Shown here: in pieces, positions 8,306 through 18,616 of the stretch
How the letters are laid out: every line of letters begins with the position of its first letter
Numbering within the stretch: position 1 is the first letter of the stretch
DNA from: Planctomycetaceae bacterium
Lineage (GTDB): Bacteria > Planctomycetota > Planctomycetia > Pirellulales > Pirellulaceae
Direction: 5' to 3'
Assembly (NCBI GenBank): GCA_947463915.1
Contig: CANHVO010000026.1
Location: forward strand, 1-33,954
DNA: 33,954 nucleotides
The notes under the pieces: model-generated
Told to the model about the DNA's origin: nothing
The model's input: the letters and a program-made list of their open reading frames with translations, nothing else
Database searches by the model: none
Translations under genes and position numbers: made by a program

Positions 8306-11098
8306 TCACTGGATAAAGAGAAATTCGTTCGAGTTGAAAAGGGCGCGACAGACGGTTTCGAGGCCGTCCGCCTTAGCCGCAGTGACGCAGGCCTCGAGTT
8401 CGGTTGCTGTCGGTGGACGCCCAAGTGCAAAAGCGAAAGCGTGACGGATTTGCGATTCCAAGCTGCTGGCGGAATCAAGCTGGACGCGTTGGCTAAACTT
8501 CGCTGATTGCTCGAGCACGAACCGGCCGTTGAGCAAGTTCAGTGCTTGCAACGGCGTGGTGGATTCGCTTCGTTTTGCGCGGACTTGGCCACAGTCGGGC
8601 AGATCCAGTGTCTTGAACATGCCGTCGTCGGCGCCTCGCATCTTGGCAAGATAGATCATGCGCCGCCAGGATTCTGGCCCTGGGTCTTCCTTGGGCTTCC
8701 ACTGATCGAAGCTCCCTTTGGGTTTATAGATGTCGACTCCAGGCCCTCCCATCGTGAGATTGAGCGCACCTGAGACCGAAAGCATGGAGTCGCGAATTGC
8801 CTCAGCATCCAGTCGGCGCGGAGGGAAACGCCACAATAGGCGCGAGCTGGCGTCTGCGGCTATAGCCATCTTCTCGGGCTGGCTGGACTGACGATAGACA
8901 GCGCTTGTCACGATCAGTTTGTGCAGATGCTTGATTGACCAACCGTTGGCGATGAACTGACGGGCGAGCCAATCGAGAAGCTGTTGATTTACAGGCCGGC
9001 TACCGACAGTACCGAAGTCGCTTGGCGTATCGACGAGACCTGAGCCGAAATGGTGATGCCATGCACGGTTAACGGCAACACGGGCAGTGAGGAATGCGGC
9101 TTGTGCGGTGAGCCAACGTGCGAACTTGGCGCGGCGTTCGCCTTCCTCAGTCTCAGCGGGGAGTTCGAATCCATCCAAGACGCTCAGCGTACCAGGGCCA
9201 ACAAGATCACGTGGCTGTTGCGGATCGCCCCGCATCAGTATATGGATCGATTCGGGCCCAGTGAACTTGCCCGCGAACACTTGAGGGCGAATACGCAATC
9301 TCGTAGCCGTAACTCTGAGCTTTTCGAATTCGGTTTCAATCTCGCGGCGCTGTGCGATCGCGGATGCATCGAGTCCGATGCTGCGACTTTCATCGACAAT
9401 GGTGCGCCATTCTCCCTCGATTTCCGCAACCTCGATTCGCCAAACCGAAGTCAGTCGAACTGCATGCGCAGCAGGATCGGAGTTTGCGAGATCGCGGTTA
9501 CGACTCCAGAGCAATCGATCGATGAGATAGGGTTGTGTCAGCTCGATTTGTACCCAGACTGGAGGACGTCGGTCGGCGACCCAGGTCGACTTCGCGCCGA
9601 CCTTGTTGTCATTGAGAAACTCGTCTTTGCTGCCGAGTTGCGAAGCTGCTCCGGAACTAGTGGCTTGGCCACCGTTGCTTTGTAGCCCCACGGACTTGGA
9701 TGGAGCATTATCTTGCGCAGCGGTCCATACCTCGATTTCATCAAATGCAGGGCCTTCGCTGGTAGCATCCGTAGACAGAATGCTCATGCGCACCCACTTC
9801 GCCAGCACAGGTTGAAAGTGATCGGTGGTTATCCCGTTGTCGGATTCTCGCCATTGTGGAAATTTCGCAAGTTTCAAACGAAGTTCTACCATGCGGCTTT
9901 CGATTTCCTTGAGCTCCTTCAGACGCTCCTTTTCTTCTCCGCTCCGCCACGGCCGGTTGTCGTATTGCACTCCCGAAAAGACTGAAACGACTCGGTAATA
10001 ATCACGCATCGAAATGGGGTCGAATTTATGATTGTGGCAGCGAGCACAACCGACGGTGAGACCCAGCATTGACGCACCGACATTCTGCACGATCTCATCG
10101 AGTGCGTTGTAACGAGCCTGCTTGATGGCATTCTGCTCTTGGCCAACTTCGGGGGGCGTGGGAAGGGGCGCAGTTACGAGGAAGCCCGTTGCTGGATCGA
10201 TGCCGATCGTGTCTCCTGCGATCTGTTGAAAAAGAAACTGATCGTATGGCAAATCGTTGTTGATCGCTTCGATCACCCAGTCGCGAAACGGCCATGCATG
10301 ATCGCGAAGCGTGTTGAATTCATATCCGCGAGTGTCGGCATAACGAATAACATCGAGCCAATGCTGTGCCCAACGTTCCCCGTATCGAGGCGAGCGGAGC
10401 AATCTTTCGACAAGCTTCTCATAGGCGTCCCTATCTCGATCGTTTAGAAATGTTTCTACTTCCTCAGGCGTTGGGGGCAAGCCTGTGAGATCGAGTGTGG
10501 TGCGACGGGCCAGCGTGCGTCGATCCGCCTCAGGTGACATCGCCAAACCCTTCGTCGCCAACTCGGCACGAACGAATCCATCCACGGATTCATGTTCAAA
10601 GTGGTTCGCAAGTGGCTGAAAGGCCCAATGAGTGTTCGTGATTTTTGACGGTTCGGTTCCCTCCATTTGCCCCGGCCACATAGCTCCCTCTGCGATCCAG
10701 GTTCTGAGCGACTCAATCTCCTGTGCGCTCAAACGATCACCTTTCGGGGGCATCTGCGTGTCCTCGTCCTTCGAGGTGATGACTTCGATCAGATGACTGT
10801 TATCCGGATCACCGGGGATGACGGCCGCGCCAAAGTCCCCTCCTTGGATCAATGCAGCTCGACTGTCCAATCTCAGCGAGGACTCTTGTTTCTTTGTGCC
10901 GTGGCACTCTATGCAATGTTTCTCCAACACCGGCAGTACTTGCTTCGCGAAATCGATCGATTCCGACGCATGCGAGGCAACGGCCATCAGGAAGAGTGCG
11001 AATGCAAAGTAGGACGGCCTTTCCAGACCGTCCCAGATGATTTGAACACGACGGCCTGGAGAGACCGTCCTACGAAGTTGCGATGGCATTCGTCTCAT
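8306..11098 (-). CDS. PSD1-type cytochrome with DUF1549, inserted discoidin-like region and DUF1553
   Basis: The 930-residue exported protein starts with an N-terminal c-type heme motif, HCIECHGTKK (Cys62, Cys65, His66), in a PSD1 domain with MPPKGDRLS. DUF1549 follows at roughly 150-360, ending in the hallmark CARCHNHKFDPI. DUF1553 is C-terminal, with FGTVGSRPVNQQLLDWLARQ and TPLQALNLLNGRFV. Between DUF1549 and DUF1553 lies a beta-rich insertion with KWVRMSILSTD, PPVWVQIELTQPYLIDRLLW and WRIEVAEIEGEWRTI, which looks like an F5/8 type C (discoidin) carbohydrate-binding domain. The ATG at 11098 overlaps the stop of the DUF1552 gene, supporting this start. Residues 9-30 are encoded by a palindromic repeat that separates the basic n-region from the hydrophobic FAFALFLMAVASHA of the signal peptide. 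Confidence 0.88.
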   Translation of the reverse strand: MRRMPSQLRRTVSPGRRVQIIWDGLERPSYFAFALFLMAVASHASESIDFAKQVLPVLEKHCIECHGTKKQESSLRLDSRAALIQGGDFGAAVIPGDPDNSHLIEVITSKDEDTQMPPKGDRLSAQEIESLRTWIAEGAMWPGQMEGTEPSKITNTHWAFQPLANHFEHESVDGFVRAELATKGLAMSPEADRRTLARRTTLDLTGLPPTPEEVETFLNDRDRDAYEKLVERLLRSPRYGERWAQHWLDVIRYADTRGYEFNTLRDHAWPFRDWVIEAINNDLPYDQFLFQQIAGDTIGIDPATGFLVTAPLPTPPEVGQEQNAIKQARYNALDEIVQNVGASMLGLTVGCARCHNHKFDPISMRDYYRVVSVFSGVQYDNRPWRSGEEKERLKELKEIESRMVELRLKLAKFPQWRESDNGITTDHFQPVLAKWVRMSILSTDATSEGPAFDEIEVWTAAQDNAPSKSVGLQSNGGQATSSGAASQLGSKDEFLNDNKVGAKSTWVADRRPPVWVQIELTQPYLIDRLLWSRNRDLANSDPAAHAVRLTSVWRIEVAEIEGEWRTIVDESRSIGLDASAIAQRREIETEFEKLRVTATRLRIRPQVFAGKFTGPESIHILMRGDPQQPRDLVGPGTLSVLDGFELPAETEEGERRAKFARWLTAQAAFLTARVAVNRAWHHHFGSGLVDTPSDFGTVGSRPVNQQLLDWLARQFIANGWSIKHLHKLIVTSAVYRQSSQPEKMAIAADASSRLLWRFPPRRLDAEAIRDSMLSVSGALNLTMGGPGVDIYKPKGSFDQWKPKEDPGPESWRRMIYLAKMRGADDGMFKTLDLPDCGQVRAKRSESTTPLQALNLLNGRFVLEQSAKFSQRVQLDSASSLESQIRHAFAFALGRPPTATELEACVTAAKADGLETVCRALFNSNEFLFIQ
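11009..11073. repeat. palindromic element, type A, inside a signal-peptide coding region
   Basis: Left arm 11009-11032 and right arm 11050-11073 are 24-base inverted repeats of the GTAGGACGGCC...CCAG(G/A)CCGTC type, with few mismatches and a 17-base spacer. The element lies inside the start region of the DUF1549/DUF1553 gene. The frame reads DGLERPSY through one arm, the same peptide as in the copy at 13567-13635. Confidence 0.9.
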
Positions 11099-12450
11099 GA
11101 ATTCAGCCCAGTCAAGGTTCCTGTGCTGCTGCCGAACGTGTCTTCCTCAATGCCGAGGTGCTGAAGCATCGTGACGAATAGGTTACACAGCGGTTTGTCG
11201 TGATCCCGCCGGAAGGCGAGGTGCTGGCCGTGCTTGAAGCCGCCGCCAGCGAGCAGAATCGGCAGGTTGGTGTTGTCGTGCGTGTTGGCGTCACCCATGT
11301 TGCTGCCAAACAGGATCATCGTGCGGTCCAACAACCGGTCTTCACCTTCATGGGTTTCGGCAAGCTGTCCGAACAGCTTGCGGAGTAGCGTCATTTGCTG
11401 ATGATCGGCGTCGATGAGTTGTTGGACCTTCGACTCTGACTGACCATGATGGCTAAGATTGTGGTAGCCATCGGTCGTGTTCTGATCGGGATGCAGGTTG
11501 AAGACCGGAGTTGCAAAGGCATCGACCATCAGCGTGACGATCCGCGTCGAATCCGATTCCAGCGCCAGCCTCGCCATCGATAGCATTAAGTCGAACTTCT
11601 CGAAGAACAACTTCTGGTCGCGAATGTCATCCGGCGGTTGCTGATCAGTTGACGGTTTTGGACGCAGTTCCCATTGGCGAGCTGTATGCAGTCGCTCTTC
11701 GATCTCCCGGACGGATGTGAGGTACTGGTCGAGTCGTGCTTGATCGTCGCGACCAAGATGGCTGCGGAACTGCCGCGTATCATCCAGCAGCGTATCGAGA
11801 ATGCTGCCTCGTTCGTCGAGTTGATGGAGTTGGCGTTCGACTGCAGCCTTATCGCCCTGGACGAACATCTTGCGGAACAAAGCAGAGGCACTCTCTTCCG
11901 CGGGGAGTAGGACGCCATCGCGCGTCCAGGAAAGACTGCGGTTGGCCTTGTCGATGTTCACACCCAGGTTGAGCGTGGGAAACCGAGTCACTGGGCCAAG
12001 CCGTTCAGCGGCGAATTGATCGAGCGAGATCGTATTTCGAAAGCCACTTTTGGTCGGGCCACGTGCTGCAGTGAGAAAGCAGTTCTCCGTGCTGTGACCA
12101 CCGTCTACATCAGGATGTGAGAGACCACTGATCACCGTGAAGTCTGCGCGAAACTCGGCCAGATCTTTCAAGTAGGGAGAAGATTCGTAGTCTCGCCCAG
12201 ATGTCTCCGGAAAGAATTGCTTCGGCAGCACGCCAAGATTGTTCGAGATCAACAGCATCCGCCGCGGCCGTTCCGCTTTCGGTTGCTTCGCCGAAACGGA
12301 ACGCAAACTGTCCAGCAGCGGTAATGCAAGCGTGACACCCGCACCGCGTAGAAACCAACGGCGCGAGACATTGGATCGATGACTGTCGATTGATGAGTGG
12401 TGATTCGTAAAGTGCTGGTAGTTGGGTGTGTGTCTTGAGCGTTTCATCAT
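11095..12450 (-). CDS. DUF1552 family protein, Tat-exported
   Basis: DUF1552 proteins share the DUF1501-like alkaline-phosphatase-type fold region, are exported by Tat, and have no established reaction. Visible here: VSRRWFLRGAGVTLALPLLD as twin-arginine signal (residues 28-47), PRRMLLISNNLGVLPKQFFP, DFTVISGLSHPDVDGGHSTE, FRNTISLDQFAAERLG, YLTSVREIEERL, GYHNLSHHG, LFGSNMGDANTHDNTNLPIL and the end FGSSTGTLTGLN. Length (451) is normal apart from a long N-terminal lead. The lead contains NHHSSIDSH, encoded by the short GATTGATGAGTGGTGATT repeat at 12388-12405. Two adjacent ATGs (12450, 12447) follow AAGGAAGA; the second has the better spacing. Its stop overlaps the start of the next gene. It follows the DUF1592-type gene by 45 bases. 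Confidence 0.9.
   Translation of the reverse strand: MMKRSRHTPNYQHFTNHHSSIDSHRSNVSRRWFLRGAGVTLALPLLDSLRSVSAKQPKAERPRRMLLISNNLGVLPKQFFPETSGRDYESSPYLKDLAEFRADFTVISGLSHPDVDGGHSTENCFLTAARGPTKSGFRNTISLDQFAAERLGPVTRFPTLNLGVNIDKANRSLSWTRDGVLLPAEESASALFRKMFVQGDKAAVERQLHQLDERGSILDTLLDDTRQFRSHLGRDDQARLDQYLTSVREIEERLHTARQWELRPKPSTDQQPPDDIRDQKLFFEKFDLMLSMARLALESDSTRIVTLMVDAFATPVFNLHPDQNTTDGYHNLSHHGQSESKVQQLIDADHQQMTLLRKLFGQLAETHEGEDRLLDRTMILFGSNMGDANTHDNTNLPILLAGGGFKHGQHLAFRRDHDKPLCNLFVTMLQHLGIEEDTFGSSTGTLTGLNS
12388..12405. repeat. GATTGATGAGTGGTGATT repeat inside Tat leader
   Basis: This is the same unit as the tandem copies at 6666-6697. Here it is translated as part of the n-region ahead of the twin-arginine motif of the DUF1552 protein. 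Confidence 0.7.
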
Positions 12451-12476
12451 TCTTCCTTCATCTTTCTTCCTTCACA

Positions 12477-12503
12477 AATCATCAATCATCAATCATCAAT
12501 CAA
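12477..12503. repeat. AATCATC heptamer tract at a gene junction
   Basis: Three AATCATC heptamers and a partial fourth lie at the junction of the DUF1592-type and DUF1552 genes. The minus strand reads GATTGATGATTGATG. The TGA stop of the upstream gene (12496-12498) is supplied by this tract, so its last two residues, Ile-Asp, are repeat-derived. Confidence 0.7.
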
Positions 12504-15129
12504 TTTTCATCCCCACGAACACCGTACTCTGCACCAACGCATGCACAAGATCACGAACTCGGTAACCATCTGCTTCGCAAGCATCGAGAATCGATTCGAT
12601 CTCTGCACGATCCGCAAATCGCAACGGAGTTCCGGTCGCGTACAGCGTGAACTGGTGCAGAAGATTGCGAGCCAATTGCCGAGGATTGCCTGCAAGAATG
12701 GCCTTTAGTTCGTGGATGTCTCGAAAGCGGCGACCATCCAGCAGTTGACCGCTGGCGTCCACCGGTTCAGCAAGTGCGTAGGTGAAATCGTGGCCCGCAC
12801 GGTCTATCCCGGCAATGTGTTCTCCCGCGTCGAGTCCGCGATAACGTGTTCGCCAACTACCAAGGATGTCGAAGTTTTCCAACGCCAGACCAACCGGATC
12901 GAACCTTGCATGACAACCAGCGCATGATTCCAATTTGGCATGCAGAGCCAGCAACTCGCGTATCGTCTTAGCGCCGCGAATGTCAGGCTCGACAGCAGGG
13001 ACGCTCGCTGGAGGTGGCGGGGGTTGCTGGCCGATCAAACGCTCCATGATCCACGCGCCGCGAACGACCGGCGACGTCGATGTGCCGTTGGCGGTCACTT
13101 TGAGAATGGCCGCCTGCGTCAACAGACCGCCGTAGGGACTGTCACCCGGCAATTCAACTTTTTGCATCTTTGACCCTCTGACCGGTGCCAATCCGTAGTG
13201 CCGAGCGAGTCGATCATTTGCGTACACAAAGTCTGCATCGATCAGCACGCTCGACGGCAGGTTGTCTCGAATCATTGAAGTAAAAAACGTCCGGGTCTCG
13301 CGCTGCATCGATTCGATCAGATAGTCATCGAAACGATACTCAGGATGCAGCCGAATGTCGGGCTCGTCGCGTCGGATGTTTCGCAGGTCGAGCCAGTAGT
13401 TGGTGAAGTTCTGAACGAAGCGATCGAAGCCGGGGCTGTCGATCAGTCGTTCGGTTTCGTTGCGGAGCGTCTTGGCATCGCGTAGTTTCCCGGCCGCGGC
13501 AAGTGCCATGAGCGTTGCATCGGGTCTGGTGTTCGTAAGAAAGTGGGACAGCCGTGAGGCGATCGCGTAGGACGGCCTTTCCAGGCCGTCATGTTCATTC
13601 ACTTTCTTTTCGACGGCCTGGAAAGGCCGTCCTACGGGTTCGTGAAGATAGAGGAAGTGGCTGGAGCACAGGAAGGCTTTATAGCCGACGAGCATCGCTT
13701 CAGAGAACGAGCTCCCCTGTTCGAGCCGCTTGAGAATGAGTTGTTCGAACCGGAGCAATGCGTCTTCTGGCACAGGTTCGCGAGAAGCGATCTCTACGAA
13801 ACGCCGAAGAAGTCGTTTGGCTTCCGTGGGATAGGCATCCTGCCTGTCTGGATTTTTCGGCGCATCGACAGGCTGGAAGCCTATCCCACTCTGATCAAAC
13901 AAGACGCGATGTGACGGTGGCGGCCATGAATCCGGACTGATCGGTCCTTCAACTTCCAGCCACTGAAAGGCAACCCCCGGTTGGCCACCATCGGGAAACG
14001 GCGGATAACGATACGTCGGCGGTCCACCGTTGAGATTGCGAGCCAGTGGGACCGGCAGACCTAACAGACTGTACTCAAATGTCTCGGTCGGCAGCAGTCG
14101 AATGGTAGTCTCGTAAACTCTGGGCTCGGGCTGAATGTCGATGATTCCTCCCGTTGCCCGAACATCGCCAGAGACATCCGGGCCAGATGGCTTCCGCGCT
14201 CGAAACGTCATCGGCACCGGATCAGTGGCCGGCTTGAGCTGATAGCCTTCGGTCTGCAACACGGCCCGGGCCGAAAAGCGGACTCGGTACTCTCCCGGTA
14301 GCTTGGCAACGAAGCCGCGGGGATATCCGAAATAGGGCCAATGAGCCGATCTAAACAGCGCGAGTTCAAGTGTCGGATCGTCTTTTAGTTTGTCGAGCTC
14401 CTTCGTTTCAACCGCCTTATTGTCCTTCGCAAAGAACATCGCTTCGCGTTCGCCAAAGGTGTTGGTATCCGAAAACAACTGCGTCCCCGCCGCGCGATAA
14501 CTGGTGACCGGTGGCGGCTCGGGTCCGCCAGCCATCGCCTGTCGCAACGACGTGTCAGCGGCATCGAGGTAGGCAGCCAACTGCACGCGTGACATGTCGA
14601 GTGCGGATGCGGTCTTGTTGAACCGATGGGCTTCTCGATCTGCCGGAAGCATATCGCGAATATCCAGCAGTGGCAGTTGCAGTACGTCCCGCAAATTCTG
14701 TTCGTATTCGTCACGGTTGAGTCGTCGCAAGGGCCCGCGACCGTTGGCCAAAACATCCTCACGATCTGCTTTTGCCACTAGGTCGTTCAATGATCTCTCA
14801 AGTGACTGTCGATCACCGTCTGTGAGACTTGAATCATCAGGCGGCATTTCACCCGACTTGACACGATCATGAATCAGAATCCAACGCTCTCTCAGTCGTC
14901 GGTCATCCAGATCAAAGGCAAGTGACGTCAGGTCCAGTCCACCTTCTGCCGATGTGCCATTATGGCATTCGAAGCAAGTTCGCTGGATCAGTTCGCCAAT
15001 TGGCTTGGGTAGATCCGAAGCGGTTAAATTTGACGCAGCAACGGAGACTAACAGGCACACACTAGGTACAATGGCCGACCTTTGAATTACTGAGGACACA
15101 CAGAATATGCCTACTTTCCAGCTGGTCAT
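12496..15129 (-). CDS. DUF1587/DUF1592/DUF1588/DUF1585 cytochrome-like protein with two in-frame palindromic insertions
   Basis: I take the ATG at 15129, where MTSWKVGIFC begins an export signal; the longer frame from 15225 runs through repeat-like leader. Domain order: N-terminal heme motif CFECH (Cys52), MPPDDSS, DUF1587 (LRRLNRDEYEQNLRDVLQLP), a beta-rich carbohydrate-binding-like middle, DUF1595, DUF1592 (IASRLSHFLTNTRPDATL), DUF1588 with PPPPPASVPAVEPDIRGA and second heme motif CAGCH, and DUF1585 (NLLHQFTLYATGTPLRFAD). The family is typical of planctomycetes, probably periplasmic, with unknown electron partner. Residues 414-435 (start SGIGFQPVDAP) and 499-521 (start VGRPFQAV, end DGLERPSY) are encoded by two different palindromic elements. 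The homologues at 23171 and 29437 lack both. Followed by its usual partner DUF1552. Confidence 0.9.
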   Translation of the reverse strand: MTSWKVGIFCVSSVIQRSAIVPSVCLLVSVAASNLTASDLPKPIGELIQRTCFECHNGTSAEGGLDLTSLAFDLDDRRLRERWILIHDRVKSGEMPPDDSSLTDGDRQSLERSLNDLVAKADREDVLANGRGPLRRLNRDEYEQNLRDVLQLPLLDIRDMLPADREAHRFNKTASALDMSRVQLAAYLDAADTSLRQAMAGGPEPPPVTSYRAAGTQLFSDTNTFGEREAMFFAKDNKAVETKELDKLKDDPTLELALFRSAHWPYFGYPRGFVAKLPGEYRVRFSARAVLQTEGYQLKPATDPVPMTFRARKPSGPDVSGDVRATGGIIDIQPEPRVYETTIRLLPTETFEYSLLGLPVPLARNLNGGPPTYRYPPFPDGGQPGVAFQWLEVEGPISPDSWPPPSHRVLFDQSGIGFQPVDAPKNPDRQDAYPTEAKRLLRRFVEIASREPVPEDALLRFEQLILKRLEQGSSFSEAMLVGYKAFLCSSHFLYLHEPVGRPFQAVEKKVNEHDGLERPSYAIASRLSHFLTNTRPDATLMALAAAGKLRDAKTLRNETERLIDSPGFDRFVQNFTNYWLDLRNIRRDEPDIRLHPEYRFDDYLIESMQRETRTFFTSMIRDNLPSSVLIDADFVYANDRLARHYGLAPVRGSKMQKVELPGDSPYGGLLTQAAILKVTANGTSTSPVVRGAWIMERLIGQQPPPPPASVPAVEPDIRGAKTIRELLALHAKLESCAGCHARFDPVGLALENFDILGSWRTRYRGLDAGEHIAGIDRAGHDFTYALAEPVDASGQLLDGRRFRDIHELKAILAGNPRQLARNLLHQFTLYATGTPLRFADRAEIESILDACEADGYRVRDLVHALVQSTVFVGMKID
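13567..13635. repeat. palindromic element, type A, in-frame within a CDS (69 bp)
   Basis: The arms 13567-13590 and 13612-13635 are perfect 24-base reverse complements, with a 21-base spacer. The total of 69 bases is exactly 23 codons and falls on codon borders of the host gene. On the coding strand it encodes VGRPFQAV, a charged linker and DGLERPSY. In the two paralogues the corresponding position is a short loop between FLFL and (F/Y)ALA(S/A)RLSY. Confidence 0.95.
13825..13890. repeat. palindromic element, type B, in-frame within a CDS (66 bp)
   Basis: The arms GTGGGATAGGC..CC.GCCTGTC (13826-13848) and GACAGGCTGGAAGCCTATCCCAC (13867-13889, shown here as one arm) pair with two mismatches across an 18-base spacer. 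The 66-base unit is 22 codons. It is read as SGIGFQPV...RQDAYPT in the linker just before DUF1595. It resembles type A in layout (GTRGGA..GGC.TTCCAG..) but differs in sequence. Confidence 0.88.
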
Positions 15130-15232
15130 GTTAGGATCTCGATTTGGGGCATGATTGATGATGATGATTTGCGACCGGCGAAGGAGAAACACGAACACAC
15201 ACACACCCAAGTCCCAGCACTTCAAAAATCAA

Positions 15233-17037: not shown

Positions 17038-17097
17038 GTAGGACAGCCTTTCCAGGCCGTCGAAATACCCTAGGACGGCCTGGAAAGGCCATTCTAC
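17038..17097. repeat. palindromic element, type A, in leader of the S15 hydrolase gene
   Basis: The arms 17038-17061 and 17074-17097 are 24-base inverted repeats with three mismatched positions and a 12-base spacer. It ends 20 bases upstream of the ATG at 17017 and lies in the gap after the DUF1501 stop. As RNA it would form a long hairpin directly before the ribosome-binding region. Confidence 0.9.
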
Positions 17098-18556: not shown

Positions 18557-18616
18557 GTAGGACGGCCTTTCCAGGCCGTCTGCAAAAATCGAGACGGCCT
18601 GGAAAGGCCGTCCTAC
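18557..18616. repeat. palindromic element, type A, between DUF1553 and DUF1501 genes
   Basis: The arms 18557-18580 and 18593-18616 are perfect 24-base reverse complements with a 12-base spacer. It lies 10 bases after the stop of the DUF1549/DUF1553 gene and 17 bases before the ATG of DUF1501. A hairpin here could limit read-through or protect the upstream message. Confidence 0.93.

Follow-up and report, generated by a model that had tools for sequence, protein, structure and literature searches.

The palindrome at positions 13567-13635 of the window (the whole stretch of DNA that was analysed, 33,954 nucleotides) is very probably an F1 REPIN, a non-autonomous mobile element served by a RAYT and tolerated in frame at permissive protein sites. 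The window is contig C26 of the 7.6-Mb, 618-contig assembly of the host genome (G000). The two arms of the element are complementary at 24 of 24 positions, in line with the 69-base element with perfect 24-base arms described in an earlier, sequence-only reading of this DNA. Each arm possesses GTAG and its own hairpin, an 8-bp stem with a TTCC loop, which makes the element a head-to-head REP dimer, i.e. a REPIN. This anatomy agrees with the rule for GTAG-type REPs, in which GTAG or GTGG lies 0-2 nt 5′ of a paired stem of at least 7 nt with a loop of 2-5 nt (PMC6006769). The inverted doublet is predicted to fold as one hairpin, as in other REPINs, with an RNA folding energy of -57.5 kcal/mol (z -10.3), a value equalled by 0 of 200 shuffles. 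Eight arm matches with up to 3 mismatches were found in the window against 0.00 expected from 100 shuffles, which rules out a chance origin of these matches. The features of the window are listed in Table 1.

Table 1. Host gene and REP elements in the window
Feature	Position	Strand	Basis or remark
Host gene, PSCyt1-PSD3-PSD5-PSD4-PSCyt3-PSD2 protein (DUF1592 type), 909-aa ORF	12496..15225	-	ORF and domain matches
F1 REPIN, 69 nt (23 codons), head-to-head GTAG REP dimer, site 1 of the DUF1592-type gene	13567..13635	-	between the PSD5 (DUF1595) and PSD4 (DUF1592) domains
First REP unit, GTAG + GACGGCCT-TTCC-AGGCCGTC hairpin	13567..13590	+	read from the sequence
Spacer, 21 nt, between the two REP units	13591..13611	.	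partial sequence likeness to G015 copies
Second REP unit	13612..13635	-	exact reverse complement of the first
F2 REPIN of 64 nt (GTGG REP dimer), site 2 of the same DUF1592-type gene, in frame (SGIGFQPV...DRQDAYPT)	13826..13889	-	sequence and alignment
F1 REPIN, 65 nt, in frame near the start of the DUF1549/DUF1553 gene 8306-11098	11009..11073	-	arm search; signal peptide by eye
F1 REPIN, 60 nt, probably between genes and followed by the likely start MNHLFTILVAV	17038..17097	.	start by eye
F1 REPIN, 60 nt, probably between genes; the DUF1501 gene is likely to start after it, at MINNCIPNRRQCL	18557..18616	.	start by eye

In-frame translation of the element on the minus strand gives VGRPFQAVEKKVNEHDGLERPSY, residues 531-553 of the longest ORF of the host gene, in which the PSD5 (DUF1595) match covers residues 469-529 and the PSD4 (DUF1592) match residues 552-679. 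The in-frame placement proposed earlier was thereby retained, and the residues 499-521 given with it are valid if the protein starts at the Met at residue 33. The further claim that exactly 23 codons had been added did not hold against the close orthologues. The interval from EP to the AIA-RLSHF motif comprises 23 residues in the host gene and 7 (L148 at this site, L328, L330) or 11 (L324-L327, L329) in insert-free orthologues at least 66% identical to it, so the net gain is 12-16 residues. The structure model that had been suggested as a check was of poor quality, with a mean pLDDT of 40.8 for the host protein (five-row alignment), and the coil that it showed at the insert speaks neither for nor against a surface loop. 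A sequence search against solved structures returned two matches, with E values of 0.55 and 0.78, and therefore no convincing homologue of the host protein.

Both further copies announced by the sequence-only reading, at 17038-17097 and 18557-18616, were present in the window, together with the F2 element and the in-frame F1 copy at 11009-11073, which that reading had omitted. The window thus harbours four F1 dimers within 7.6 kb, whose spacers are unlike in length and sequence, and hence these are not simple copies of one 69-mer. The 21-nt spacer at site 1 has the length found in most copies of genome G015. The copy at 11009-11073 follows MRRMPSQL and precedes the hydrophobic stretch of what, as judged by eye, is probably a signal peptide, and the nearest orthologue of its gene, L356 (64%), has no REP at that place. 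The F2 element reads GTGGGATAGGCTTCCAGCCTGTC; its REP consists of GTGG, an 8-bp stem with one G-T pair, hence not strictly fully paired, and a 3-nt loop. Window positions 12367-12511, close to one end of the DUF1592 gene, also contain short tandem runs of the TCATCAATCATCAATCA type; in G015 (L197) such runs lie upstream of the corresponding gene.

Genome G015 possesses the same block of S15 peptidase, DUF1592 and DUF1552 genes (86-93%), and the core of its DUF1592 gene is 89.7% identical to that of G000. Both insertions of the window gene, at sites 1 and 2, are common to G000 and G015 and therefore predate their split. Further in-frame dimers were found as well: G015 harbours an F1 dimer at site 3 between GFV and EYRVRF, with a net gain of exactly 72 nt in frame, and another at the C-terminus with its second arm past the stop, neither of which is present in G000. 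Locus L140 (SYJG01000174) has F1 copies at site 1, at the C-terminus, with the same junction as in G015, and at site 2, where the copy is nested in F2. Its sister L148 (SXKJ01000288) has F2 at site 2 only and no F1 copies; the two are placed outside the G000/G015 clade. A decayed F2 arm with 5 mismatches was found at site 2 of L328, where the gene is still open, and in the paralogue L160 the site 1 loop harbours an F2 dimer. Loci L324-L326 (77-78%), which form the sister group of the window gene, are insert-free.

Across the 35 orthologue loci, which are those fetched and not every search match, REPs were found in five, and no arm was present in L324-L326 and 27 other loci. The six loci dropped by the motif filter contained no arm at up to 6 mismatches. 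The absence from close orthologues and the copies elsewhere bear out the earlier description of the palindrome as a spreading unit foreign to the protein family. On the gene tree (28 rows, L200 being left out as incomplete), parsimony suggests seven or eight insertions at four positions of the DUF1592 gene, with F1 probably gained twice at site 1 and twice at the C-terminus. The F2 at site 2 may have been gained once, plus losses, or twice, the placement of L330 having a support of only 58.

At base level, neither a clean empty site nor a base-exact target was found in the aligned homologues, as native bases are lost or extra at the junctions. The final TAC of the site 1 element stands where relatives mostly encode Tyr or Phe (L328: CAC TAC GCC). 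At site 3, G000 has AAG CTAC CGG where the G015 element ends in CTAC, and at the C-terminus G000 has GTG GGG against GTA GGA in G015 and L140. These junctions would suit a GTRG/CYAC tetranucleotide as the insertion target, in the manner of IS200/IS605-like enzymes, which is offered as a suggestion only; the cases are few, and other relatives lack the tetranucleotide at these junctions. L140 (4820-4900 plus the right flank) shows two copies of CTACGAGACG where its site 1 insert ends on the right, resembling a short duplication.

After insertion, the inserted codons drift almost neutrally. Between G000 and G015, dN/dS was 0.13 in the core (780 codons) and 0.85 in the inserts (45 codons), with values of 1.05 and 0.63 for the two shared inserts and 1.07 for the site 1 spacer (7 codons, six changes). 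The synonymous and nonsynonymous counts of core and inserts differed significantly (Fisher p 0.007).

The search for the arm in the host genome and in related genomes, as proposed in the sequence-only reading, revealed other copies in both. With up to 3 mismatches, 21 F1-like arms were found in G000. The eight arms in the window have TTTCC in the middle, once TCTCC, and the 13 other arms all have TTTTC, most of them in a mixed dimer within a longer MITE-like repeat. All eight arms of the window subtype are confined to this operon region, and F1 is low-copy in G000, with the four window dimers and nine listed mixed dimers elsewhere (two overlapping). The MITE-like repeat, at L005, L008-L013 and L017-L021, consists of a mixed REP dimer with arms GTAGGACGCCC... 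and GTAGGACGGCC..., and outer ends like GGCTGTGAATAAAT. F2 arms gave 100 matches in G000; the spacer is 12 nt long in 20 of 36 F2 dimers, and many of the dimers lie within a longer repeat with conserved flanks. Near-identical 12-nt spacers were observed at L036, L047, L050, L055, L061, L064, L230, L234, L237, L243, and L252, most of these 11 loci belonging to a longer conserved-flank repeat and several ending near CTAG.

Dimers were defined by arms with up to 5 mismatches, a spacer of at most 120, and a position not within 60 nt of a locus end. Because scoring of the flanks by codon usage was too weak, the coding context was judged by spanning ORFs, and a dimer was considered deep intragenic when an ORF of at least 180 codons in all spanned it with at least 40 codons on each side. 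By this definition 2 of the 49 G000 dimers are deep inside an ORF, both in the DUF1592 gene; the copy at 11009 was not counted because it is too near the gene start. With 47 of 49 dimers not deep and the arm numbers given above, the elements of G000 are repeated and mainly intergenic, as is typical of GTAG-type REPs.

RAYT-like genes were located with NF047646 and PF01797, and 83 loci were scanned for flanking arms, including 14 + 19 from G000 (overlapping sets) and 50 from ten other genomes (51/52 matches). Head-to-head F1 or F1-like dimers were found on both sides of the RAYT gene in L320 (0 mismatches), L308 (0-1), L302 of Rhodopirellula maiorica SM1 (2-4), and L378 (2-3). F2 dimers occur on both sides in L178 of G000 (0 mismatches) and in L321 (2-3). 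In L317, which lies close to the end of a contig, one side bears an F2 dimer and the other a weaker arm with 4 mismatches. L379 has an F1 dimer on one RAYT side only, L377 has weak F2 arms only, and L305 has single arms only, with 4 mismatches. None of the 83 reversed-sequence controls had a flanking match. No F1-flanked RAYT was found among the 19 RAYT and 14 Y1 loci of G000 (overlapping sets), nor at the 8 RAYT loci of G015, some loci in both genomes reaching contig ends. A RAYT gene flanked by its own REP, or REPtron, is therefore present for F2 in G000 (L178) and for F1 only in other genomes.

The RAYT tree, whose 25 tips are those of 36 RAYT-like domain matches that reached 90 aa and do not include L378, groups L302, L308, and L320 (UFBoot 99), and L178, L317, and L321 (100). 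The RAYT of G015 in L310, sister to the F1 group (88), is accompanied by another REP, read as GTAGTGTGGGCCTCTGAGCCCGCAC. The RAYT of the Anaerolineae MAG L300 falls outside the F1 group and has F1-like arms on both sides in tandem, not head-to-head.

The F1 REPIN, as two inverted GTAG-tagged REP hairpins, would thus be a miniature element served in trans by a RAYT, a REP-associated tyrosine transposase of the Y1/HuH type. F1-group RAYTs would move the REPIN in single-stranded form, probably cutting at GTAG/CTAC tetranucleotides. TnpA_REP of E. coli cleaves REPs and requires a GTAG guide (PMC6006769). Intergenic insertions would be tolerated, and to judge from the survivors, genic ones would survive only if their length keeps the frame, the TAG of GTAG is avoided, and they fall in a loop or terminus that is permissive. 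The alignment and the tree show that the DUF1592-type gene and its operon repeatedly took up F1 and F2 REPINs in two lineages. Insertion or a later event removed part of the native loop, and the inserted peptide is presumably translated. According to dN/dS, the spacer is free of constraint at the protein level, and purifying selection on the remainder of the protein maintains the frame. The F1 copies of the operon may have arrived with it by horizontal transfer, which we consider because the G000 assembly contains neither an F1-flanked RAYT nor another F1 copy of the subtype.

Conservation of the arms is at odds with plain neutral drift, and it is unexplained in a gene for which no cognate RAYT was found: between G000 and G015, 3 of 94 arm sites and 11 of 39 spacer sites have changed (Fisher p 8e-5). 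These counts agree with a selected decoration in place of tolerated junk, in which a DNA or mRNA hairpin or the arm-encoded peptides would affect operon expression or the protein, and so do the very stable predicted mRNA hairpin and the fact that two REP families have invaded the same places again and again in two lineages. Nevertheless, we regard such a function as unlikely, since the spacer codons show a dN/dS of about 1 (only 7 codons at site 1), the gene is still open in L328 with its decayed F2, and the close orthologues L324-L327 and L329 lack any REP. In addition, arms are generally better conserved than spacers in REPINs (PMC3116915), and thus the conservation observed here need not concern the gene. 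Selection on the arms with a free spacer also belongs to another, improbable reading, according to which specific DUF1592 loops would be recurrent landing sites where RAYT-served REPINs swap native loops for portable peptide modules. The loop-end codons would then supply GTRG/CYAC-like targets that fix the frame, and such native targets are seen as CTAC at site 1 (L328), CTAC at site 3 (G000), and GTGG at the C-terminus (G000).

Parallel insertions could also reflect shared history and not repeated transposition, if recombination or horizontal transfer had exchanged gene segments bearing the inserts between lineages. Exact F1 arms are patchily distributed, being present in 6 of 396 genomes drawn from the host's order, presumably Pirellulales, with 1 to 84 matches each, all eight G000 arms of the subtype lie in this operon region, and close orthologues of the host gene are rare in the genus genomes searched, all of which would suit such an exchange. 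However, in L140 the site 1 flanks differ, with SVSA before F1 and ETLYETNPDD after it, the spacer is 33 nt long and not 21, and L140 pairs with L148 outside the clade of G000 and G015, which renders the exchange quite improbable. The resemblance to Rickettsia palindromic elements noted by the sequence-only reading stood as far as behaviour is concerned, as a palindrome is placed in frame and encodes a peptide of 20-30 residues. The identity did not, because the element is a GTAG-type REP dimer with relatives around RAYT genes. A planctomycete counterpart of the Rickettsia elements, mobile in its own right and unrelated to RAYTs, is largely refuted by the GTAG tag with its REP hairpin and by the identical or near-identical dimers that flank RAYT genes in four other genomes, and we give it hardly any credence. 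Rickettsia RPE-4 and RPE-6 are CGTC-type REPs with no known dedicated transposase according to Di Nocera et al. 2013 (PMC3733652), whereas F1 is GTAG-type and associated with RAYTs; each F1 arm has a CGTC at its inner end too, but as a part of the stem, whereas the CGTC type has it as an unpaired tag beside the stem. Common to F1 and to RPE-1, RPE-4, and RPE-6 is that they are mobile palindromes found in frame in protein genes.

The F1 and F2 REPINs instead resemble the GTAG REPs described by Di Nocera et al. 2013, a work that distinguishes 24 families, in the GTAG or GTGG tag, the short stem-loop, the head-to-head dimers, the mostly intergenic location with some copies in frame, and the association with RAYTs (PMC3733652). 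That work reports, for other bacteria, GTAG REP dimers which lie in frame inside genes and encode 20-30 residues, with the highest number in Opitutus terrae and with some ORFs hit twice, and names R. baltica as a host of GTAG REP families. In comparison with those descriptions, the present analysis traces the invasion across orthologues on a tree and reveals parallel hits at the same places. Similar to the REPINs of Bertels and Rainey 2011 (PMC3116915), F1 and F2 are inverted doublets with a less conserved spacer, one hairpin, and cognate RAYT lineages; the REPINs described there are extragenic, whereas F1 and F2 are found in frame in genes, and also in longer MITE-like repeats (G000, G015).

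In-frame intragenic REP dimers are therefore already known, and only the present case is new, with an unusually clear history. The earlier remark that the kind is undescribed for planctomycetes was right in that no planctomycete intragenic in-frame REP was found in the literature, outside the supplementary intragenic table of PMC3733652, which may hold one; the kind itself is known in other bacteria. With the help of a tree, the case documents how REPINs have entered one protein more than once, and it makes visible an insert that predates a species split, its near-neutral drift, and its parallel repeats. REPs, named as extragenic elements, supply coding sequence in planctomycetes too, and the insertions mark places of a protein family that accept some 20-40 foreign residues. 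Two planctomycete REP families are linked to RAYT lineages.

Among the public matches listed, exact F1 arms occur in records labelled Planctomycetia, Pirellula, Thermoguttaceae, Rhodopirellula, and as Anaerolineae and Chloroflexi MAGs. The records with Anaerolineae or Chloroflexi labels are L300, L075, L085, L106, L113, and L152, which may reflect transfer between phyla or binning error. From the public loci 107 dimers were taken, and 34 were spanned by a qualifying ORF. Inspection by eye led us to reject most of these 34, as spurious ORFs in GC-rich MAGs or because the real start comes after the REP (for example L074, L088, L116, L142). Plausible intragenic cases by eye are L079, L140, L148, L160, L161, and L169, the last being G015 itself. 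L079 possesses an F1 dimer before PSCyt1, and in another gene of L140 an F2 dimer of 136 nt directly precedes a DUF6807 domain. L161 is a weak case, its Pfam V_ATPase_I match being below the cut-off and ending before the insert. At L133:5779-5836, an F1 dimer lies in frame in an ORF in which, on inspection by eye, a methyltransferase-like part leads into a prepilin-like start (FTLVELLVV), and this joint ORF is possibly a fusion or due to chance.
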